This document shows, piece by piece, positions 3,531 through 50,505 of a stretch of 50,505 nt of DNA. Under the pieces are notes generated by a model, which saw nothing but the letters and a program-made list of their open reading frames with translations, was not told the DNA's origin and did no database searches. The DNA comes from a virus, in IMG/VR virus record IMGVR_UViG_3300026116_000012, positions 1 to 50,505 of that record; one strand, 5' to 3'. The position numbers and the translations under genes are program-made. How positions within the stretch are numbered: position 1 is the stretch's first letter; each line of letters begins with the position of its first letter.

Positions 3531-3566
3531 ACGGCAAAAGCGACCACCTAATTCGTATATCTCGAC
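3531..3566 (+). promoter_or_regulatory. Phage promoter, leaderless type, for the sigma-factor operon
   Basis: ACGGCAAAAG (3531-3540), 13 nt, then CGTATATC (3554-3561), then 5 nt to the ATG at 3567. The stretch ATTCGTATATCTCG[A/G]CATGA and the upstream ACGGCAAAAGC recur at exactly the same spacing before the gene at 41256, and related copies lie before 38472 and 47619. A -10 box ending 5 nt before the start codon places the transcript start at or next to the ATG, so the mRNA should be leaderless; there is no ribosome binding site here. This promoter would drive the overlapping gene series that follows. Confidence 0.75.
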
Positions 3567-4085
3567 ATGACGAAAACGGAAGAACAGGCACTCATCGCGC
3601 AGCACGAAGCGAGGATCCGCTTTCTTGCGCTTTCGTTCAATCGCATGGGCGTTCCGCTCGACGACCTGCTGCAAGAAGCGCGCATCGCGTTCGTGATCGC
3701 GGTTCGTCACTGGCGGCCCGATGGCGGCGCGTCGCTCATCACGTTCGCTCATCGCTCGATCGTCAACGCGCTGATCTCGCTGACGCGCAAGGCGATGACC
3801 GATATCCCTGTCACGCACGACGGCTCGACGGAGGTGCTTGACGGCGCGCTCAGCGCCGAAGAGCTCGTCGTGCTCGTCGAGCTGCTCGCGCGCCTCACGA
3901 TCCGCGAACGCGTCGTCGTGCTCGAGCACCTCGCGTCGAGCAAGACATACGACGAGCTCGTCGCCGAACTCGGCGTCTCTTTCAAGACGGTCCGTTGGGC
4001 ACACGAGAGCGCGCTCGCGAAGATGCGCGCCGTAGCGGAGGTGGCGCCGCTCGCGACGCTCCAGAGGAAGACCGAGGCCGCGTAA
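3567..4085 (+). CDS. RNA polymerase sigma factor (sigma-70 family, small)
   Basis: 172 aa, close to the size of ECF-type or sporulation-type sigma factors. Residues about 27-68 look like sigma region 2 (D-D-L-L-Q-E-A-R-I-A-F followed by F-A-H-R-S-I-V-N-A-L), and residues about 110-155 like region 4, a helix-turn-helix with L-T-I-R-E-R-x-V-V-L-E-H-L and T-Y-D-E-L-V-A-E-L-G-V-S-F-K-T-V. It should redirect host RNA polymerase, most plausibly to late or other phage promoters. Its start is fixed by the leaderless promoter immediately before it. The stop overlaps the next start by 1 nt (TAATG). Because its own promoter belongs to the recurring phage motif, autoregulation is possible. Confidence 0.85.
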   Translation: MTKTEEQALIAQHEARIRFLALSFNRMGVPLDDLLQEARIAFVIAVRHWRPDGGASLITFAHRSIVNALISLTRKAMTDIPVTHDGSTEVLDGALSAEELVVLVELLARLTIRERVVVLEHLASSKTYDELVAELGVSFKTVRWAHESALAKMRAVAEVAPLATLQRKTEAA

Positions 4086-4636: not shown

Positions 4637-5115
4637 AAGACACGAATCCCAAAGACGCGCTCGCGGCCGACAAGGTGCCGTTGTCGCTCCTCTCGCCAAT
4701 TGCCGAGGCGCATATGTCCCTCGCCCTGTACGCCGGCTATTGCAAGTACGGCGCTTGGAACTGGCGCTTGTCGGGCGTGCGCGCGTCGGTCTACCTCGGC
4801 GCTGCACGGCGGCACCTCGCCGCGTGGATGTCGGGCGAGGCCGTCGACCCGACCGACGGCACCGATCACCGCGCGAATGTTATGGCGTGCATGGCGATCC
4901 TGCTCGACGCCGAGGCCGCGGGGAAGCTCGTCGACGACCGCCCGCCGAGCGTCGCGGTGCGCGAGACGTACGCGCGGTGCGAGGCGACGATGGCGGCGCT
5001 CCGCGCGAAGTACGCCGACCGCGCGCCGCGCCACTACACGATCGTCGACACCGTAACAGCGGGCGTCGAAGAAGGCATCGATATCGACCTCACCGACGAT
5101 TGCGAGGAAGTCTAA
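4633..5115 (+). CDS. dATP/dGTP diphosphohydrolase-like (DUF5664)
   Basis: 160 aa. The N-terminus N-P-K-D-A-L-A-x2-K-V-P-L-S-L-L, the block K-Y-G-A-W-N-W-R with G-V-R-A-S-V-Y, and R-R-H-L-A-A-W followed by D-H-x-A-N-V-M-A-C are the signature of the DUF5664 family, annotated in phages as dATP/dGTP diphosphohydrolases (all-alpha NTP pyrophosphatase relatives of MazG). It likely turns purine dNTPs into dNMPs. The C-terminal 40 residues are acidic and not part of the core. It overlaps genes on both sides (ATGA and 1 nt), placing it in a nucleotide-pool module with the HD enzyme and the MazG-like protein at 6463. Confidence 0.85.
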   Translation: MKDTNPKDALAADKVPLSLLSPIAEAHMSLALYAGYCKYGAWNWRLSGVRASVYLGAARRHLAAWMSGEAVDPTDGTDHRANVMACMAILLDAEAAGKLVDDRPPSVAVRETYARCEATMAALRAKYADRAPRHYTIVDTVTAGVEEGIDIDLTDDCEEV

Positions 5116-8233: not shown

Positions 8234-8713
8234 ATGAAAAAGGGCAACAGGGTTCGTTTGCGAGAGGACTCCAAGCGTGGATACTTCCGAGACTGGAGAG
8301 AGTGGGCCGAAGGCGGCGCGCTCGTCTTGGCGCTCGACCCCGACCCCGACAGCTCCTCTATCATCGTCGAGCGCGAAGACGGGACACCATCGCCCGACGG
8401 CGTCAGAGCGCCTCGGGTCACACGCTATTTCTATGAGCTCGCAGAGCGCCCGCCCACGCGCGAGGAGTCGCTCGAGCTTGAGAATCTGCAGCTGAAAGAG
8501 CAGATCGTGCGCGAGCAGGCTGCGAAGGCTGGCATCGACGCGCCTTCGTGCATCGAACACGAGCGCAGGTTGATTACGGCTTGCGAGAAGGAGATCGAGA
8601 AGGCACGCGCAGCGATCGAGCACTTCGAGAAGGATCCTTGGTGCCAGGCAAAGAAGGCCGTCGCCGACTTCGTCGAGAAGCTCCGCGCGGCGGGTGTCGA
8701 GGTGCCGCAATGA
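8234..8713 (+). CDS. Coiled-coil hypothetical protein, paralogue of 8710
   Basis: 159 aa. An N-terminal beta-rich region (residues 1-70, V-R-L-R-E-D, V-E-R-E-D-G-T) is followed by R-P-P-T-R-E-E-S-L-E-L-E (near 73) and a coiled coil to the end, finishing F-V-E-K-L-R-A-A-G-V-E-V-P. The same three elements recur in the next gene, so the two arose by tandem duplication. A ribosome binding site is present. Function unknown. Confidence 0.75.
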   Translation: MKKGNRVRLREDSKRGYFRDWREWAEGGALVLALDPDPDSSSIIVEREDGTPSPDGVRAPRVTRYFYELAERPPTREESLELENLQLKEQIVREQAAKAGIDAPSCIEHERRLITACEKEIEKARAAIEHFEKDPWCQAKKAVADFVEKLRAAGVEVPQ

Positions 8714-10722: not shown

Positions 10723-11871
10723 ATGGTGACGATACGACCGCGCGGGGCACACTGGCAGTACGATATCCTTTTCAAGTGGCCTGACGGCGCGCGCTTTCGT
10801 GAACGTGCGAACGCTCCGGTCTCGAGCAAGTCGGCCGCGCAGCGCTGGGCAGAGGCACGAGAGCGCGAGCTCCTCGCCGCAGGGCGCGCCGCGCACGAGG
10901 CCTCGAAGGCGCCTCCGCCCGCAGCCGTCGAGGGACCGCCAACGCTCGCCTCGTTCTGGCCTCGCGTCGTCAGCGACCACTACCGCGCGAACCGAAAGAA
11001 GCCGTCCACCATCGACGCCGCGGAGAGCATCGCGCGCCTGTACCTGCTGCCCGCCTTCGGCGACACGACGATCGACCGGATCACGACGGCCGACGTCGCG
11101 AAACTCAAAGGCCGACTTGCGACGCGGAGCCCGAAGACCGTCAACAACGTCTTGACGGTGCTCTCGCGCGCGCTCCATTGCGCGGTCGAATGGGGGCTGC
11201 TGCGCGAGATGCCGTGCGCCGTCGGCTTCTTCAAGGCCGCGGCGCCGGAGATGCAGTGGTACGAGCGCGACGCCTATCGCAGGCTCGTCGAGGCCTCGGC
11301 GCGCACGTCGACGCGCGTCTTGATCCTGCTCGCTGGCGACGCCGGCCTTCGGCGCGGAGAGATCCGGGCGCTGAAGTGGGCCGATCTCGATCTCGAGCGC
11401 CGCATCATTCACGTCAGCCGCGGCATGTGGCGCGCGCACGAGGCGACGCCGAAGGGCAACCGCGGGCGGGACGTCCCCATGACCGAGGCGCTGCGCGCGG
11501 CGCTCGGGGCGCACCGGCACCTCGTCGGCGAGCGCGTGCTGTACGGGGACAACGGGCGCGAGCTCTCGAATCGAACCGTGCGCAATTGGCTCGCGGGCGC
11601 GCAGCGTCGCGCCGGGCTCGAGCCGAACGGCGCGATCCACATGCTCCGTCACACCTTCTGCTCGCACCTCGCCGCGGCCGGCGTTCCTGCCAACGCGATC
11701 AAAGAGCTCGCGGGGCACGCCGACATCGGAACGACGCAACGATACATGCACCTCTCGCCTGCGAATCGCTCGTCGGCGATGGATGCACTCGCCGCGTACC
11801 ACGCCGAAGAGGCCGTGGTACCGGCGCGGAACGGCTCCCTTGCGCGTTCCGCGCGCCCTGCTATTCGCTAG
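10723..11871 (+). CDS. int: Tyrosine integrase
   Basis: 382 aa phage integrase. The N-terminal arm-binding and core-binding domains are followed by the catalytic domain with Arg210 (G-L-R-R-G-E), the beta-hairpin Lys region (P-K-G-N-R-G-R-D-V-P), H-M-L-R-H (His306, Arg309), G-H-A (His332) and nucleophile Tyr341 (Q-R-Y-M-H-L). All catalytic residues are present. It catalyses site-specific integration and, with the HTH protein upstream, excision. The attP region with tRNA/tmRNA-like core and arm repeats starts just after its stop. The last 40 residues are a non-conserved tail. Confidence 0.95.
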   Translation: MVTIRPRGAHWQYDILFKWPDGARFRERANAPVSSKSAAQRWAEARERELLAAGRAAHEASKAPPPAAVEGPPTLASFWPRVVSDHYRANRKKPSTIDAAESIARLYLLPAFGDTTIDRITTADVAKLKGRLATRSPKTVNNVLTVLSRALHCAVEWGLLREMPCAVGFFKAAAPEMQWYERDAYRRLVEASARTSTRVLILLAGDAGLRRGEIRALKWADLDLERRIIHVSRGMWRAHEATPKGNRGRDVPMTEALRAALGAHRHLVGERVLYGDNGRELSNRTVRNWLAGAQRRAGLEPNGAIHMLRHTFCSHLAAAGVPANAIKELAGHADIGTTQRYMHLSPANRSSAMDALAAYHAEEAVVPARNGSLARSARPAIR

Positions 11872-37621: not shown

Positions 37622-38029
37622 CTATCCCTTAGCGACACGCTCCCTTTCGACCCACTCACGAAACCAACGGTCGAGCGCTAGGAAGCAGTCGGCGTGCAGC
37701 TCGACGGCACGCGCCTTGGTCTTCAGGGGCGACTCGTTCAGCGGCCACGCGCGAGGGGCGATGGTCGTCACGAAGGGCGCGATGCTCTGCACCGAGGCAC
37801 CCTTCAGGACAGCCACGATGATCGCCCCCGTGGTGACGCCGTAGTGCTCGCGCGCGAGGGTGCGCACGACCCTCTGCAGGAAGAGCAGATCCTCGACCCT
37901 AGGCTCGGCGCGCTTCAGCGCCGCCACGCACCTGCGCGCCTGCAGCCGCGCCGGCTTGCCCTTCGCCGCGTCGTAGACCTCGGTGAACGCGAGCGCCTCG
38001 CACCCCCTCTCGGTCGGCTTGGCGCTCAT
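37622..38029 (-). CDS. Hypothetical protein
   Basis: 135 aa from ATG 38029 (ATGA overlap with the RuvC-like gene). Helical and basic; A-R-L-Q-A-R-R-C-V-A-A-L-K-R-A near residue 27, F-L-Q-R-V-V-R-T-L-A-R-E-H-Y-G-V near 52, and a Trp-rich end (D-R-W-F-R-E-W-V). No family is recognised. The coupling to a RuvC-like nuclease suggests a DNA-processing partner. Confidence 0.65.
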   Translation of the reverse strand: MSAKPTERGCEALAFTEVYDAAKGKPARLQARRCVAALKRAEPRVEDLLFLQRVVRTLAREHYGVTTGAIIVAVLKGASVQSIAPFVTTIAPRAWPLNESPLKTKARAVELHADCFLALDRWFREWVERERVAKG

Positions 38030-38472
38030 CGTACGCGCCTCCCGACGACGAACAGGCCGATCCCGACCGCGTCGACGATGTTGTGCCCCCGCGCGACCGA
38101 GAACGCCGCGAGCATGGCGTCGAGCATGTGTCGCTCGTCGGGGCGCAGCGCGTCTTTGATCCGCGGCTGATGCTTCTCTTTCGGGACGCCGCTCTTCCAC
38201 CGCACAACGTCGACGAACTCGACGGGGCAGCACGCGCGAAAGACGCCCGTCCATTGTCCGGCGTTCAGCGCGAGCGTGATGATGTCCTCGGGTCGCTTAG
38301 TCGCTCGATTGATCGCCGGTCGCTCGACCGTCACCGACTCGAGCTGTCCGCTTGTCGCTATTGATTGCACGTACGGGTTGCACGACGGATCTCCCAAACC
38401 GCAAGCGACGAGCTTGTCGCTATCGAACAGTGCCCAACCAGTGTCATCGCCCGGATCGATCGAAAGCCTCAT
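38026..38472 (-). CDS. RuvC-like nuclease (Holliday-junction resolvase family)
   Basis: 148 aa. RNase H-fold layout: L-S-I-D-P-G-D-D-T-G-W-A (first Asp, residue 6), V-T-V-E-R-P (Glu), and H-M-L-D-A-M-L-A-A-F with D-A-V-G-I-G near the end. Probably resolves branched DNA before packaging, which fits its place upstream of the terminases. The start codon is fixed by a promoter whose -10 box ends 5 nt before it. Confidence 0.8.
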   Translation of the reverse strand: MRLSIDPGDDTGWALFDSDKLVACGLGDPSCNPYVQSIATSGQLESVTVERPAINRATKRPEDIITLALNAGQWTGVFRACCPVEFVDVVRWKSGVPKEKHQPRIKDALRPDERHMLDAMLAAFSVARGHNIVDAVGIGLFVVGRRVR

Positions 38473-38508
38473 ACGTGGATGTACGAAAAGCGCGCCCGCT
38501 TTTGCCGT
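38473..38508 (-). promoter_or_regulatory. Phage promoter, leaderless type, for the RuvC-like gene
   Basis: Minus strand: ACGGCAAAAG (38508-38499), 13 nt, CGTACATC (38485-38478), 5 nt, ATG 38472. Same elements and spacing as at 3531 and 41220, with one change in the -10 box. Palindromes stand immediately upstream. Confidence 0.72.
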
Positions 38509-38510
38509 TA

Positions 38511-38617
38511 GTCCTGAGCTCAGGACGCGAGCGCCGAGTCCCGCGGCTCAGGACTACGAAACCTGAACAATATCCATGGAGTCCCCGAGTCCTGAGCTCA
38601 GGACTCCATCAGGACTC
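38511..38617. promoter_or_regulatory. Cluster of CTGAGCTCAG-centred palindromes
   Basis: GTCCTGAGCTCAGGAC (38511-38526, 16 bp) and GAGTCCTGAGCTCAGGACTC (38587-38606, 20 bp) are perfect palindromes. Half-sites CTCAGGACT (38547-38555) and TCAGGACTC (38609-38617) lie between and after. The first palindrome is 2 bp upstream of the -35-like box of the promoter at 38473-38508. This looks like an operator/activator array for a dimeric regulator. Confidence 0.7.
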
Positions 38618-38823
38618 CACGCGGACGCGGCGCTATCTATTCGATATCGTTTACGAATCGAGCAAGTTCTAGAAAAAGCACACCTAAAACTTGCCCTCTG
38701 CGGCGGTTTTGATTACGCTAGCGCCTAGCGACGCGTAATCAAACCCTGCAGGGGCCGCGGGACGGAGGAAGAGAGAGGTTCCCGCCTCGCGGTCGACTCG
38801 CAGGCATCCGTCGCGAACATGGA
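38618..38823. other. Non-coding region with AT-rich tract and inverted repeat (origin candidate)
   Basis: No supportable gene. The stretch 38632-38695 is AT-rich for this genome. TTTGATTACGC (38708-38718) is mirrored by GCGTAATCAAA (38733-38743), with GCTAG/CTAGC inside, followed by the palindrome CCCTGCAGGG (38744-38753). An AT-rich tract plus large inverted repeats next to the primase/helicase gene is a plausible replication origin; alternatives are terminator or regulatory sites. Confidence 0.4.
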
Positions 38824-38871: not shown

Positions 38872-38895
38872 TGTCGCTGTCGCTGTCGCTGTCGC
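38872..38895. repeat. (TGTCGC)x4 microsatellite
   Basis: Four exact tandem TGTCGC units between the terminator and the stop of the primase/helicase gene. The same heptamer TGTCGCT is scattered at 38353, 38415, 39003 and, inverted, 38961 and 38973, and in terS. Non-coding except for one base of the stop codon. Confidence 0.75.
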
Positions 38896-41135
38896 TACTC
38901 GGTCGAGCGCTTGACGACAATAAACGGACCGTCCGGATACGACTCCGCGATGTCGCCATTAGCGACAGCCAAAGCGACAGCGTCTTTATCGACACGTGCC
39001 TCTGTCGCTATTCGAGCAACGGACGTCAGCTTGCCAGGCTCGACCGCTTTGAGAATGCGTGTCCGTCGAGCGTCGTCGGTATCGAGCGCGTACCCGAACG
39101 GTTTCCCGACGCGAATGGCACCGCGCAGTTCGAGCGCCTTGATCTCGTCGGTGAGCTTGCCGCTGCCGACCCCGAGCGCGCGCTCGAGCCGGTGCAGCGT
39201 CTCGACCGGGCCCTTCTCGAGCTCCGCGATGATGCGCTTCTCCATGGCGGCGTATTCGGCCTTGTGATCGACCGCGCTGTCGAGCGAGAGCCCGGTCTCG
39301 GAAAGCGCGATACGGAAGTCGGCCGGCCGCGGCCCGCACGGCTTCACGCACCGGACGAGCATCCGCTTCCTGTCCTCGTCTTGGGGAACGAGCGTGAAGC
39401 ACCAATCGAGGCCGGCGTACAAGGCCCCGTTCCCGCGCACTTGGTCGCGCTCGTCCCCGCCCTCGCCCTTCTTCCCGTGGTGCAGGATGATGATCGTGAC
39501 GCCGAGCTCCTCTGCAATGCGTCCCGCGAGGATGAGCGGATCGGCGGCGCGACGGTCGTTCTCGTCGAGGCCGGGCGTGCCTGCCGCGAACGAGTCGATG
39601 CACACGACCTTGATCCCGCGGGTGTGAATGATGCGCGCGAGCTTTTTCCAGAACTCGATATCGTCGAGCTGCGCGCGCGGGAAGTTCATGTGCCCGAGCT
39701 CGGGGGACGCGAGCTTGCCGAGGAGATGCGCGCGGCGCTGCAGGGTGTGTCGCCCTTCCTCGAAGTCGACGATGAGCGCCTTCCCTTGCTCGACGGGATA
39801 GGCACCGAGCCACGGCAGGCCGTTCGCTACCGCTATCGCCAACGAGAGCAGCATCCACGTTTTGAGCGACGAGCCTTTCGCCACGATCATGCCGACCGTC
39901 CCCGCGGGAATGATCGGCGTGACGAGGTACTTGATCGGCTCGACCTCTTCATCCCACGCGCCCCACGTGAGCTTCAGTGAGGCTTCGAGCTCGTCGGAGG
40001 GCTCGGGCGGCGCGGCTGCGATGGTGTCGGGGAGGAGCGGCGCCGTCTGCGCGGCCTGCGCGGCGCTAGTCTGCGAGAGCACCTCTGCGAACTCGCGCCG
40101 GCCGTCGGCATCGCGGTCGACGAGGCTGCGCGCGGCGGAAACGATCCCGGCGTCGACGTGTCGCTCGAGCGTTGACCAGCCGACGACGTGCGCCTTCGTC
40201 TCCCACGTCGCGGCGATCGTCTGCGCGCGCTTGTCCGGATCCTCGTCGCCCGCGGCTTTGCAGACGTCGCAGAGGAAGCCGAACGCGTCCTCGGGCGTCC
40301 AGCCGTCGCGCCGCAGCGCGCCCGCGAGGGCCATCTGCGCAAGGTGCCGTCCCTTCGCAGGCCAGGACGCGCCGAGGAGCTGCGCGGCCGCGGCACGGCG
40401 CGCGGAGGGGGCAACGTGCGGCGTCGGGACGGTCGGTGCCTCGACAGGCACGACCTCGACGGGAACGAGCGCGTCGAGGCGCGTGCGCGGCCCGGGGATT
40501 ACCTCGAAGCGGTAGCCGGCCGTCCGGATCGGCATGTAGAGCAGCCGCGCGACGTCGAGCGCCTGCGCGTCGTGCTCGCCGACGCTGCGCATGTACGGCT
40601 TGACGCGGCTTTCCCATTCCTCGGGCGTCGCGGCGCGGTCGAGCAGCTCGAAAACGCGCAGGCGCCATGACCCGTCAGGGTTGCGCTCGCTCGGGGTCGT
40701 GTGGATTGCGAGGTAACGATCAGGGAGTGCCGCGACGACGAGCGCGACGGCGTGCTCGAACGACAGCGCGTGCACGTGGTCGAAGTCGTGTCCGATGATC
40801 TGTCGCTCGACGCACTCGCCGATGTTCCGTCGGTCGCCTCGGAAGCGCGCGGGAACGAGCGCCGGGATCCGCTTCTTCGCCGCGGCGCGCGCCTTGTCGT
40901 CGGTCGCGGCTGCGAGCTGCGCGACGAGCTCGGCTTCCGTCGCCTGCCACGCTTCGAGATCCGCGCCAATGAGCCGAGCAACGACCGCGTCGGGGTGCTC
41001 GACGAGCGCTGAGAGGAAGCCTTCGCCGGGCGTCTCGAAAGAGGCGCGCGCGAGCTGCCCTAGGTCGTGCGTGGAGAGGACGGAGATCCAGACAGGTTGG
41101 CTCACGTAGCTACTTTCATAGACACACCTCGCCAT
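38895..41135 (-). CDS. Replicative primase/helicase-like RecA-fold ATPase
   Basis: 746 aa from ATG 41135 (GTG 41105 is a possible alternative). Residues 95-215 resemble an AEP-type primase region (H-D-F-D-H-V-H-A-L-S-F-E-H, V-G-E-H-D-A-Q-A-L-D-V-A-R-L-L). Residues 405-640 are a RepA/DnaB-like ATPase: Walker A V-A-K-G-S-S-L-K-T (418-426), A-L-I-V-D-F-E-E-G, V-V-C-I-D-S-F and I-I-I-L-H-H-G-K-K-G. The C-terminal 100 residues carry winged-helix-like repeats. Likely opens and primes the phage origin. Own divergent promoter upstream, terminator downstream. Confidence 0.82.
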   Translation of the reverse strand: MARCVYESSYVSQPVWISVLSTHDLGQLARASFETPGEGFLSALVEHPDAVVARLIGADLEAWQATEAELVAQLAAATDDKARAAAKKRIPALVPARFRGDRRNIGECVERQIIGHDFDHVHALSFEHAVALVVAALPDRYLAIHTTPSERNPDGSWRLRVFELLDRAATPEEWESRVKPYMRSVGEHDAQALDVARLLYMPIRTAGYRFEVIPGPRTRLDALVPVEVVPVEAPTVPTPHVAPSARRAAAAQLLGASWPAKGRHLAQMALAGALRRDGWTPEDAFGFLCDVCKAAGDEDPDKRAQTIAATWETKAHVVGWSTLERHVDAGIVSAARSLVDRDADGRREFAEVLSQTSAAQAAQTAPLLPDTIAAAPPEPSDELEASLKLTWGAWDEEVEPIKYLVTPIIPAGTVGMIVAKGSSLKTWMLLSLAIAVANGLPWLGAYPVEQGKALIVDFEEGRHTLQRRAHLLGKLASPELGHMNFPRAQLDDIEFWKKLARIIHTRGIKVVCIDSFAAGTPGLDENDRRAADPLILAGRIAEELGVTIIILHHGKKGEGGDERDQVRGNGALYAGLDWCFTLVPQDEDRKRMLVRCVKPCGPRPADFRIALSETGLSLDSAVDHKAEYAAMEKRIIAELEKGPVETLHRLERALGVGSGKLTDEIKALELRGAIRVGKPFGYALDTDDARRTRILKAVEPGKLTSVARIATEARVDKDAVALAVANGDIAESYPDGPFIVVKRSTE

Positions 41136-41166
41136 AGACGCAGCACGAGGCACTGCACCTAGGAGA

Positions 41167-41197
41167 GATATACGCGCGTCGGCTTGGATTATGCCGC
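41167..41197 (-). promoter_or_regulatory. Divergent phage promoter for the primase/helicase (weaker match)
   Basis: Minus strand: GCGGCATAAT (41197-41188; 7 of 10 match to ACGGCAAAAG), 13 nt, CGTATATC (41174-41167; exact). The transcript would start near 41160, leaving a leader of about 25 nt before ATG 41135. Confidence 0.6.
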
Positions 41198-41219: not shown

Positions 41220-41255
41220 ACGGCAAAAGCTCGAGCGGCATTCGTATATCTCGGC
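41220..41255 (+). promoter_or_regulatory. Phage promoter, leaderless type, for 41256
   Basis: ACGGCAAAAGC (41220-41230), 9 nt, ATTCGTATATCTCGGC (41240-41255), then ATG 41256. Nearly identical over both boxes to the sigma-factor promoter, with the same spacing. This fixes the start of the gene at 41256 rather than at the upstream in-frame ATG 41184. Confidence 0.78.
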
Positions 41256-41741
41256 ATGAACGACAACGACAACGCGGCCGTCGAGTCGCCCGAGATCGAC
41301 AAGGAAGCGCTTACCCGCGAGGCACTGCGAGCGTTCGGCGAGGCCTGCGAGACGTTCGGCACCATCAGCAAAAAGTTCGGCGACCTCGTCGTGCTGCTCG
41401 GCATCCCTGTCGACTTGGTCGCGGCAGTGGTCGCCTCCCGCGAGATGGTCGGAGCGCCGAGCGAGCTGATCATGTCGCAGAGGGACGCGGAGAGACACGG
41501 GCTGATCGCCCCGCCCGCCGAGGGTTCGAGCGAGGACAGCGGAAGCACCCTCGACGACATGACGATCGCGACCGCGGTGTGCATGGTCGCCGAGGGCAAC
41601 GCGAAAGAGGTCGCGTCGAACGTGCTCCTCGCGTGCAAGCGCCGAGGGCTCATCGCGAGCTCGGGGCGCGGGCGAGGCGTCAAGTACGCGCTGACGGCCG
41701 ACGGAGAGGCCGTGCGCTCGGTCTTCGGCACCGCGCCGTGA
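41256..41741 (+). CDS. Putative DNA-binding protein with C-terminal winged helix
   Basis: 161 aa. The acidic N-terminus leads into a helical region (F-G-E-A-C-E-T-F-G-T-I-S-K-K-F-G). The last 60 residues (M-T-I-A-T-A-V-C-M-V, A-C-K-R-R-G-L-I-A-S-S-G-R-G, Y-A-L-T-A-D-G-E-A-V) fit a winged helix. First gene of the rightward replication operon and expressed from a strong phage promoter, so an early regulator is plausible. Confidence 0.7.
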   Translation: MNDNDNAAVESPEIDKEALTREALRAFGEACETFGTISKKFGDLVVLLGIPVDLVAAVVASREMVGAPSELIMSQRDAERHGLIAPPAEGSSEDSGSTLDDMTIATAVCMVAEGNAKEVASNVLLACKRRGLIASSGRGRGVKYALTADGEAVRSVFGTAP

Positions 41742-45780: not shown

Positions 45781-47559
45781 GTGCAAGCCGTCCGCTTCAC
45801 CGAGGAGCTGCGGCGCATCTCCGCGCTGCCGCGGCGCCTGCCCGTCTGCCCGCCCGGCCTCGTCGAGCAGCTCACCGAGGTACTGCGCGCGCCGGGCGGC
45901 ACCATGACGCTGCGACCGACGCAAGCGCTCGCGCTGCACGATATCGGGATCTATGGCGGCGCGTTCTGCGCGCTCGACGTCGGCGAGGGGAAGACGATCA
46001 TCTCCATGCTCGCGGGTTGGGTGCTCGGCGCAAAGCGGCCGCTGCTGATCCTGCCCGCGACGCTGATGGAGAAGACGCTCCGCGACCGCGACGAGCTCGC
46101 GAAGCACTGGCTCATCTCGACGAACCTGCGACTCGTCTCGTACGAGATCCTCGGGCGCGTGCAGTCGGAGGATTATCTCTCGACGTACGAGCCGGATCTC
46201 ATCATCGCAGACGAGTCGCAGAAGCTGAAGAACAGGCGCGCGGCTGTCACGCGCCGCGTGGCGCGCTGGATGCGCAAAGCGCCCGAGACGAAGTTCGTAG
46301 CCGAGACCGGCTCGATCATGAACAAGTCGCTGCTCGACTTCGCGCACGTCTTGCGATGGTGCCTGAAGGACGGCGCGCCCGTGCCGCGCACCTCCGAAGA
46401 AACGGTCGAATGGGCGTCGGCGATCGACGAGGACATGCCGCAGGGCAACGAGCTCGCGAGGCTCGAGCCCGGCGCGCTGCTCTCGCTCTGCACCGCAGAC
46501 GAGCTCGGTCTCGACCCCGTGTCGGCTGCACGCCGCGGCTTCCGTCGACGGCTGAACGAGACGCCCGGCGTGATCGCGACGGTCGCGGCCGGCGCGTCGT
46601 CCGTCGGCATGTCAGCCGAGAAGGTCGACGCCGCGATCAAGGTGCGAGCGATCACGTACGAGATGACGCACGCGACGGACCGCGCCTTTCAGAAGCTCCG
46701 CGCCGAATGGAAGTCGCCCGCGGATGAATGGCCGTTGACGGGCGGCGCGGAGGTTTGGGCCGACGCGAAGGAGCTCGCGCTAGGCCTGACGTACACGTGG
46801 AACCCGCGCCCGCCGGATGCGTGGCTCGAGCCGAGGCGCGATTGGGGATCGTTCGTGCGCGAAGTGATCTCGAGCTCGCGCACGCTCGACAGCGAGCTAC
46901 ACGTCGCGCAGGCGATCGTCTCGGGGAAGATCGACGACGGAGGCAAGCTCGCGCGGTGGATGGCGGTGCGCGACACCTTCGTTCCCAACCCCGTGCCGGT
47001 TTGGTTCGACGAGACGGTGCTGAAGCTCTGCGCCACGTGGGCGCACGCCGCGCCCGGGATCGTCTGGACCGAGCACTCGCACTTCGCAGAGCGCCTCTCG
47101 CGCGAAGCCGGCCTCGCGTACTACGGCGCGAAAGGCCTCGACGCTGCAGGGCGCTTTATCAACGACGCGCCGCCCGGGCGCAGCGTGATCGCGTCGTCCG
47201 ACGCCAACCGCGAAGGGCGCAACCTGCAAGGCCTTTGGAATCGCAACCTGATCACGTCGCCCGCCGAGGGCTCGGGTTGGTGGAATCAGCTTATCGGCCG
47301 CACGCACCGCCCCGGGCAGAAGGCGAGCGAGGTCGTCGTCGACGTGCTGCTCGGCTGCGCGGAGCACGCGAATGCCATGCGCAAGGCGCTCGCGGGCGCG
47401 GGCGCGGTGCGCGACACGACGGGCGCGCCGAACAAGCTGCTTTCGGCGACGTTCGATTGGCCCGACGACTTCACGATCGCTTCGTTCCCCGGGCCGCGTT
47501 GGCGCGAGATGAAGCCGGAACGATTCGACGCCTACGAACGGCAAAAGTGGCGTCGCTAA
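45781..47559 (+). CDS. SNF2-like DEAD/DEAH helicase
   Basis: 592 aa from GTG 45781. Motif I L-D-V-G-E-G-K-T (Lys71), motif II A-D-E-S-Q-K (144-148), motif III-like A-E-T-G-S-I-M-N-K, motif VI Q-L-I-G-R-T-H-R-P-G-Q near 500. The overall order matches SNF2-type double-stranded DNA translocases of phages. Likely remodels protein-DNA complexes or branch-migrates DNA. A phage promoter lies in its last codons. Confidence 0.88.
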   Translation: MQAVRFTEELRRISALPRRLPVCPPGLVEQLTEVLRAPGGTMTLRPTQALALHDIGIYGGAFCALDVGEGKTIISMLAGWVLGAKRPLLILPATLMEKTLRDRDELAKHWLISTNLRLVSYEILGRVQSEDYLSTYEPDLIIADESQKLKNRRAAVTRRVARWMRKAPETKFVAETGSIMNKSLLDFAHVLRWCLKDGAPVPRTSEETVEWASAIDEDMPQGNELARLEPGALLSLCTADELGLDPVSAARRGFRRRLNETPGVIATVAAGASSVGMSAEKVDAAIKVRAITYEMTHATDRAFQKLRAEWKSPADEWPLTGGAEVWADAKELALGLTYTWNPRPPDAWLEPRRDWGSFVREVISSSRTLDSELHVAQAIVSGKIDDGGKLARWMAVRDTFVPNPVPVWFDETVLKLCATWAHAAPGIVWTEHSHFAERLSREAGLAYYGAKGLDAAGRFINDAPPGRSVIASSDANREGRNLQGLWNRNLITSPAEGSGWWNQLIGRTHRPGQKASEVVVDVLLGCAEHANAMRKALAGAGAVRDTTGAPNKLLSATFDWPDDFTIASFPGPRWREMKPERFDAYERQKWRR

Positions 47560-47618
47560 CCGTATATCAAACAGAGCGCGCGATATCGACGCGCACAACC
47601 CCTGCAAAAGGCGAGCAC
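47538..47618 (+). promoter_or_regulatory. Phage promoter with 5' leader for 47619
   Basis: ACGGCAAAAG (47538-47547) in the end of the SNF2 gene, 13 nt, CGTATATC (47561-47568), same spacing as the other copies. Here the transcript has a leader of about 45 nt with AAAAGGCGAG before ATG 47619, so the promoter class is not limited to leaderless genes. Confidence 0.7.
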
Positions 47619-48176
47619 ATGGATATCGATGCGTTGTTCGGCGACATGGCGAAAGCCCCCGTGTACGGCCGCGGCAATCAAGCCGCGGTCGGCGACTACC
47701 TCGTCGAGATCAAGGCGATGAAGGTGAAGGCTTCCGAGAAGAAGAAGGGGCAGGTGAACTTCATCTGCGAGTACGACATCATCCAGGTCTTCTCGACCAA
47801 GGATCCCGAGAAGATGCGCCCCGGCGTCTCGGGCGCGTGGATCGGGAACTTCACGCAGGCGCCGCTCTTCGGAAACATCAAAGAGCTGATGTTCGCGATT
47901 CTCGGGAAGAAGGGCAGCGCCGTCCCCGAGAGCGACGTCAGCGCGCACCGCCTCGTCACGCTAATGGCTACCTCGGCGTGCGACGGGCCGCGCACCTCGC
48001 GAGCGACCGCAGACCTCCGCACCGAGTTCGGGATCGACGACGTGAACGCGATCGTGAAGGGCGCGCGCGTGCTCCTCTCGACCGTCGATATCGAGCTGAA
48101 GGATAAGAGCGAGTTCACGCGGCACACGTGGTCGCCGACGCCCGAGGCCGCAGCGGCCGCGCAGGCCGGCGCGTGA
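47619..48176 (+). CDS. Putative single-stranded DNA-binding protein
   Basis: 185 aa. N-terminal D-I-D-A-L-F-G-D-M, then a beta-rich core (G-D-Y-L-V-E-I-K-A-M-K-V-K, V-N-F-I-C-E-Y-D-I-I, S-G-A-W-I-G-N-F) suited to an OB fold of phage SSB or DUF669-like proteins. It has its own promoter, consistent with high demand. Assignment is tentative. Confidence 0.55.
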   Translation: MDIDALFGDMAKAPVYGRGNQAAVGDYLVEIKAMKVKASEKKKGQVNFICEYDIIQVFSTKDPEKMRPGVSGAWIGNFTQAPLFGNIKELMFAILGKKGSAVPESDVSAHRLVTLMATSACDGPRTSRATADLRTEFGIDDVNAIVKGARVLLSTVDIELKDKSEFTRHTWSPTPEAAAAAQAGA

Positions 48177-49162: not shown

Positions 49163-50505
49163 ATGAGACTTCGTCCGTATCAGCGCCGAGATGCAATTCG
49201 TCTGTTCGACGGCCTGTTTAGCGGCACCCCGCGCAGGCTGCTTTACGTGCTCCCAACGGGCGGTGGGAAGACCGACGTCGCGGTCGCGGTAATTCGCGCG
49301 GCCGTCGAGGGGGAGCGTCGCGTGCTCTTCTTCGCTCATCGTCGCGAACTGATCGCGCAGGCACATGATCGCCTCGCCGCGCGCGGAATGCCGAAGAGCA
49401 AGATCGGGATCCTGCTCGGCGGGGACGAGCGCGTGCGCCCGGACGCGCCCGTGCAAGTCGCGAGCGTGCAGACGTTGAATCGCCGAAAGCTGCCCCGAGC
49501 CGATCTGATCGTGGTCGACGAGGCGCATCACGCGACGTCGGAGAGCTATCAGAAGATCCTCGAATACTACCCGACCGTGCCGGTGCTCGGGCTCACCGCA
49601 ACGCCGTTCCGCCTCGACGGGAAAGGCCTCGGGGACGTCTTCGACGAGCTCGTTCTCGGCCCGACCGTGCGCGAGCTTGCGGCAATGCCCGACGTGCTCG
49701 CCCTGCCGCGCGTGCTGACGGTCGCCGACGCCGACCTTCCCGACATCAGCAAGGTGCGCAAGACGGCGGGCGAGTACAACCGCGCCGACCTCGAAGAAGA
49801 GATGGCGCGCCGCCCGCGCCGTATCGGCAACGCGCGCGGGCACTACGTGAAGCACGCGAACGGTCGCCTCGCGGTGCTCTTCGCGGTGAACGTCGAAGAC
49901 TCGAAGAACGCGTGCGCCGACTTCAACGCGAACGGCATCGCAGCCGAGCACGTCGACGCGAAGACGACGACCGAGGAGCGCGCCGCCATCCTCGCGCGGC
50001 TGCGGTCGGGCGAGACGAAGGTCCTTACCAACGTCGATATCGTCACGGAGGGTTGGGATCTCCCCGAGCTCGGCTGCGTGATCTGCATTCGCCCGACGGC
50101 CTCGCTCGCGCTTTGGCTGCAGATGTGCGGCCGCGCAATGCGCGCGAAGAGCGAGCGCCCGATCGTGCTCGACCACGCAGGCAACGTGCATCGCCTCGGC
50201 GTGCCGCAAGACGAGCGAGAGTATTCGCTCGAAGGCGTAACGACCACAGGCGAGCGCAAAGGCGTCGCGCCGTACAAGCGGTGTCCGGATTGCGAAGAAG
50301 CAGTGCCGACGCTCACTGCGACGTGCGAGGGCTGCGGACACGTCTTCTACACGGGCGAGCCTCCCGCGGAGCTTACGGGCGAACTCGTCGAGGCGAGAGG
50401 TTTGTTGCCTTGCTCGGTCGAAGGCTGCAAGACAATGGCGACTCGAGTCTCGTCTGTATATGCACGTAAGGGAGGCAAGGCGTACTGCGAGCAGCACTCG
50501 GGAGG
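49163..50505 (+). CDS. DEAH-box superfamily 2 helicase, N-terminal part; continues at 2
   Basis: 448 codons here, 624 aa on the circle. Motif I L-P-T-G-G-G-K-T (Lys36), motif II D-E-A-H (119-122), motif III L-T-A-T-P-F-R, motif VI Q-M-C-G-R-A-M-R near residue 325. A zinc ribbon follows (C-P-D-C-x11-C-E-G-C near 375-390), then the five C-x4-C...C-x2-H repeats from codon 414 on. GGAGG 4 nt before the ATG fixes the start. A replication or repair helicase, coupled to the DNA polymerase gene. Confidence 0.93.
   Translation, partial: MRLRPYQRRDAIRLFDGLFSGTPRRLLYVLPTGGGKTDVAVAVIRAAVEGERRVLFFAHRRELIAQAHDRLAARGMPKSKIGILLGGDERVRPDAPVQVASVQTLNRRKLPRADLIVVDEAHHATSESYQKILEYYPTVPVLGLTATPFRLDGKGLGDVFDELVLGPTVRELAAMPDVLALPRVLTVADADLPDISKVRKTAGEYNRADLEEEMARRPRRIGNARGHYVKHANGRLAVLFAVNVEDSKNACADFNANGIAAEHVDAKTTTEERAAILARLRSGETKVLTNVDIVTEGWDLPELGCVICIRPTASLALWLQMCGRAMRAKSERPIVLDHAGNVHRLGVPQDEREYSLEGVTTTGERKGVAPYKRCPDCEEAVPTLTATCEGCGHVFYTGEPPAELTGELVEARGLLPCSVEGCKTMATRVSSVYARKGGKAYCEQHSG
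50407..50505. repeat. Terminal direct repeat (right copy)
   Basis: Identical to 1-99; see the left copy. Removing one copy gives the 50,406-bp circle. Confidence 0.9.

Follow-up and report, generated by a model that had tools for sequence, protein, structure and literature searches.

Which RNA polymerase sigma factor reads a promoter-like element that recurs in a phage genome ahead of a sigma gene and of replication genes, and do transcripts from it begin on the start codon itself? We address this in the window, the whole 50,505-nt record IMGVR_UViG_3300026116_000012, and call the virus it represents the window phage. Comparison of the window ends showed that the last 99 bases (50407–50505) are an exact copy of the first 99 (1–99), and the record is therefore probably a complete, circularly closed genome, whether circular or permuted; tandem repeats of ~123 bp lie close to the join. 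Since a tyrosine integrase is encoded at 10723–11871 (PHROG 1, E 7e-64), the window phage is probably temperate. Direct comparison of the window at the DNA level gave no match to known or named phages, and its closest relatives, as judged from alignments, are prophages of soil myxobacteria. Near-identical sequences ahead of two adjacent small-gene starts, at 8710 and 9174 (+), suggest a recent tandem duplication.

A recurrent element next to start codons

The initial annotation had described a recurrent, identically spaced motif. Searching both strands of the window for ACGGCAAAAG-N13-CGTATATC with up to three mismatches returned five matches, against a mean of 0.01 in dinucleotide shuffles, none of which reached five; the motif is thus real and far from equally common at random positions. 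Its spacing, GGCAAA-N17-TATATC, is constant across the five sites. Three copies are exact (3531–3561, 41220–41250 and 47538–47568, all on the plus strand), one on the minus strand carries a single change (38478–38508), and a weak minus-strand copy with three changes (41167–41197) forms the divergent partner of the one at 41220.

At 3531, 41220 and 38508, the box (CGTATATC/CGTACATC) ends exactly 5 nt before an ATG, so that the −10 box begins 11 nt upstream of it, and the sequence around each site agrees with the annotation on this point. Shine-Dalgarno-like cores precede 23 of 31 structural genes of the window vs none of these three start-proximal genes. Leaderless genes can be recognised by a TA box ~10–12 bp ahead of the start codon, and were predicted on this basis in 8 of 33 delta-proteobacterial genomes (PMC3160421); translation of such mRNAs by a myxobacterial ribosome is therefore plausible. 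The claim that the element yields leaderless transcripts holds, as a prediction, for these three sites and fails for the other two: the box at 47538 lies 50 nt from the next gene start (47619), with a weak Shine-Dalgarno-like AAAGGCG in between, and that at 41197 lies ~60 nt from the primase GTG (41105), leaving leaders of ~50–60 nt, and these two sites are therefore not leaderless. An 18-codon frame (GTG...TGA) at 41102–41158 (−), 3′ of the weak 41197 element, overlaps the primase GTG with its end; translational coupling to the primase is possible, provided that the primase does not start at an in-frame ATG further upstream.

Palindromic iterons (AGTCCTGAGCTCAGGACT and partial copies) occupy 38510–38620, immediately upstream of the 38508 site, and inverted-repeat iterons, each set different, stand at the equivalent place in three other phages of this study (G002, L153 and L276). 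They are candidates for a replication origin or an operator.

Genes behind the elements

The exact copy at 3531 precedes a gene at 3567–4085 (+) with no alternative start upstream, making it a potential autoregulatory site. The predicted 172-aa product contains only sigma regions 2 and 4, and exceeds curated cut-offs for PF04542 (40.2 bits vs 24) and TIGR02937 (57.9 vs 42.9), assigning it by profile to the sigma-70 family of RNA polymerase sigma factors. Region 2 falls at residues 9–76 and region 4 at residues 103–155, the latter with a score below the cut-off; an AlphaFold model (mean pLDDT 74) shows two helical blocks. The protein has neither region 1.1 nor region 3, sharing the two-domain architecture of ECF (group 4) sigmas such as M. 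tuberculosis sigma H, E. coli sigma E and B. subtilis SigW. Its top Foldseek matches also include ECF members (M. tuberculosis sigma H and sigma L, E. coli sigma E and AlgU), and further likenesses are a −35 that starts with GG and an A-tract and a promoter that, in our proposal, is autoregulated. Unlike in ECF systems, no anti-sigma gene was recognised among the annotated neighbours, and a profile built from the phage sigma sequences scored RpoS and SigA best among solved sequences. We therefore describe the modelled protein as ECF-like in build, its descent from ECF groups being only putative.

The sigma gene sits one gene past, and in the same direction as, the DNA polymerase gene (628–2964). 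The 38508 site lies 5 nt before the ATG of a RuvC-like Holliday junction resolvase gene (38026–38472, −; PHROG 1770, E 6.6e-6), in which the SIDPG motif starting at residue 4 rules out a start codon further downstream. The 41220 site precedes a rightward replication operon encoding exonuclease-like, methylase, ligase, helicase and SSB-like proteins; its first gene (41256–41741, +) encodes a 161-aa protein of unassigned family, and the primase/helicase that the annotation had placed in the regulon lies on the other side of this divergent site (38895–41105, −). The window thus ties the primase to the element only through its weakest copy, at 41197. The 47538 site overlaps the end of the helicase gene and is followed by a gene (47619–48176, +) whose product, on the basis of AlphaFold and Foldseek, is probably an OB-fold single-stranded DNA-binding protein. 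Sigma factor, RuvC-like nuclease and probable SSB, also named by the annotation, are borne out. The operon from 41256 may run on through the genome join into the polymerase and sigma genes, as suggested by the related prophage L141, where the helicase gene is followed by those for the SSB-like protein, polymerase and sigma.

Related phages carry private elements

Single-protein queries with the sigma factor, DNA polymerase and terminase gave no or only distant matches among viral contigs, and relatives were instead recovered with alignments plus conserved motifs. A polymerase alignment led to distant viral relatives, to prophages in Labilithrix MAGs (L093 and L094) and to prophage L141 on contig 97 of G125, another genome of the Labilithrix host's order, which we take to be Polyangiales; a helicase alignment added the metagenomic phage L153. 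Three relatives were compared: the myxobacterial prophages L093 (in genome G002) and L141 (in G125), and L153. Outside L141, an unsupervised gapped-word search mostly picked up GC-rich codon repeats; comparison of upstream regions aligned at the start codon performed better.

Each relative has an element of its own. In L141, the strongest gapped repeat, TTGGCAAA-N18-CTAATAG-N4-RTG, has three copies, preceding the first of two tandem post-polymerase sigma genes, the primase gene and the exonuclease operon, the latter two as a divergent pair. The G002 prophage carries four copies of TGGC-N18-GCATATG-N5-RTG (primase, divergent operon head, RuvC and an HD-like gene), and L153 four of TGCCGGTTT-N12-MCGCCTAWTA-N4/5-RTG (RuvC, primase, exonuclease operon and sigma). 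The private element therefore stands at the primase and the divergent exonuclease operon in 3/3 relatives, at RuvC in 2/3 and at the post-polymerase sigma gene in 2/3; all three have a strong version of the orthologous divergent pair, which makes the place of the primase in the regulon clear there. This layout of divergent primase/operon pair, RuvC and sigma matches that of the window, and none of the four phages carries another's element. Different elements with the same geometry and the same genes in three relatives strongly support the annotation's proposal of a phage-specific bipartite promoter that would also drive the sigma gene.

A sigma gene immediately follows the polymerase gene in G002, G003, L141, L153 and L013. 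In G002 and G003 the two genes overlap at the polymerase end, and the sigma gene lacks a leaderless element. Two tandem small sigma genes follow the polymerase gene in L141 (6378–7474, −) and L153 (15595–16658, +), with the private element ahead of the first and a more sigma-70-like region 4 in the second (TRERIRQIE in L153); either of the two may read the element.

Among more distant relatives (L013–L055 and L153–L180), most are without a clear start-proximal pair. Repeated TTGACA-type promoters with the −10 ~6–7 nt before the start codon occur in L024 (12108 and 13292, +) and L041 (976 and 1254, −), where they point to sigma-70-like leaderless genes. Weaker shared elements lie at or near the equivalent gene heads in L013 and L276. 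In L276 (~2240 and 4770–4800), the 13-nt GTCACTACAGGGC stands 4–5 nt before the start codon at the RuvC, primase and divergent gene heads, all three lacking a conserved −35, and is perhaps a one-element version of the start-proximal design.

The elements are largely confined to the phages. In 184 genomes of the Labilithrix host's order, the window element (≤2 mismatches) matched 11 times vs 4 for a reversed control, whereas it matched four times in the 50 kb of the window itself; it is thus near background in the order of the related hosts. The exact L141 element is absent from all 184 genomes outside the prophage, and the exact G002 element from the rest of its 8.2-Mb host genome. Across IMG/VR, the exact window motif occurs in two other contigs, both of 50% GC; we attribute these to chance, since neither has any homologous protein. 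A sigma gene accompanied by a private, repeated promoter-like element that the host genomes tested do not use is the pattern of a phage-sigma regulon of the phiEco32/7-11 type.

Geometry and possible readers of the elements

We measured 14 start-proximal sites in the four phages, leaving aside the weaker elements of L013 and L276. The −35 core lies 22–24 nt from the start of the −10, which in turn lies 10–11 nt from the start codon, a distance fixed in 14 of the 16 sites considered, on both strands. A pyrimidine immediately precedes the start codon at 13 of the 14 sites, compared with 33 of 64 (51.6%) other window genes (P ~0.001 if sites are independent, related sites being counted as such). 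Such a base ahead of the A or G of a start codon makes a favourable initiator, which fits transcription beginning on the start codon. From this spacing, the start-proximal genes are putatively transcribed as leaderless mRNAs; the 5-nt gap after TATATC falls ~1 nt short of a typical discriminator, leaving the precise first nucleotide uncertain.

The same geometry bears on what reads these promoters. The host primary sigma factor might do so with a phage activator bound to GGCAAAA, leaving the phage sigma with targets elsewhere. TATATC shares 4/6 bases with TATAAT, activators that substitute for a −35 are well known, and −10 boxes could differ between phages at activator-dependent promoters, as they do here. 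We consider this unlikely because the −35 core stands at a proper −35 place, 16–18 bp from the −10, in 4/4 phages, both promoter halves differ between phages, and the element lies ahead of the sigma gene in three of them (the window phage, L141 and L153). Short of a systematic search, no activator candidate common to the four phages came to light. Reading by a host alternative (ECF) sigma would suit the ECF-like geometry (GG plus A-tract, ~16 nt, CGTA), and hosts of this group carry many such sigmas; against the prophage-only or near-background distribution in host genomes, and with four related phages requiring four different host sigmas, it is very improbable. That the motif is instead a mobile repeat, or a site bound as an operator or replication iteron, is just as hard to credit, for while repeated operators occur in phages and palindromic iterons adjoin the RuvC site, the element is non-palindromic, always points toward a gene and keeps its start-codon distance.

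Proposed mechanism

We favour, with a probability of roughly 75%, the reading that a two-domain phage sigma acts at a promoter of its own, from which its gene and the replication genes are expressed as leaderless transcripts. The product of 3567–4085 would bind host core RNA polymerase, and the holoenzyme would recognise GGCAAAA as −35 and CGTATATC as −10, with 17 bp between the hexamers. It would transcribe its own gene in positive feedback and turn on the RuvC-like resolvase and the rightward operon from 41256, together with the primase through the weaker copy and the SSB-like gene through the leadered copy. At the three start-proximal sites, RNA would begin at, or at most 1–2 nt from, the A of the AUG, with translation proceeding independently of any Shine-Dalgarno sequence. 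Related phages would follow the same layout, each with a different private promoter, and phage sigma and promoter appear to change together.

The regulon had been annotated as early, which is unlikely, since a self-driven, sigma-dependent regulon needs sigma first. The first sigma could be supplied by read-through from other promoters, the gene lying downstream of the polymerase gene in the same direction, and a middle or delayed early class would therefore fit better.

Discussion

Phage sigma regulons are known as a kind from phiEco32 and 7-11. As described in the available text on phage 7-11, its sigma (SaPh711_gp47) works with host core polymerase, as we propose here, and reads a private bipartite promoter, GTAAtg-16-aCTA, unlike the phiEco32 element at similar genome positions; that promoter positions are kept while sigma and promoter sequence diverge was shown experimentally for this pair (PMC8948821, PMC4331800), and resembles what we see among the relatives. 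According to the same portions of these sources, phages of the 7-11/phiEco32 type differ from the window phage in being enterobacterial and lytic; the 7-11 sites precede late genes, with no element upstream of its own sigma gene, and these passages mention no leaderless placement at replication genes.

Leaderless genes of bacterial hosts (Actinobacteria, Deinococcus-Thermus and some delta-proteobacteria) share the distance from −10 to start codon, but are attributed to host sigma-70-type promoters (PMC3160421), whereas the element described here is private to the phage and includes a conserved −35. In the literature searched, which covered few subscription journals, we found no paper on a phage-encoded sigma with leaderless promoters. 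As far as that literature shows, the fixed leaderless placement and the private, co-diversifying promoters in a temperate, myxobacteria-linked phage family are new.

These phages offer a natural series of small (~160–220 aa) sigmas, each matched with compact promoters, from which the rules by which regions 2 and 4 select −10 and −35 sequences could be learnt; the pairs could also serve as orthogonal expression parts. They further suggest, for bacteria whose phages have been little studied, a phage regulon that fuses transcription and translation signals through a leaderless design. We advance more tentatively, at somewhat less than even odds, the broader idea of a temperate myxobacterial phage lineage that runs replication through an autoregulated sigma whose main promoters are leaderless by design, sigma and promoter co-diversifying fast enough to give each phage its own, mutually exclusive transcription code. 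Such private promoter codes possibly insulate co-resident prophages from one another, and both this insulation and the time at which prophage sigma regulons act become directly testable.
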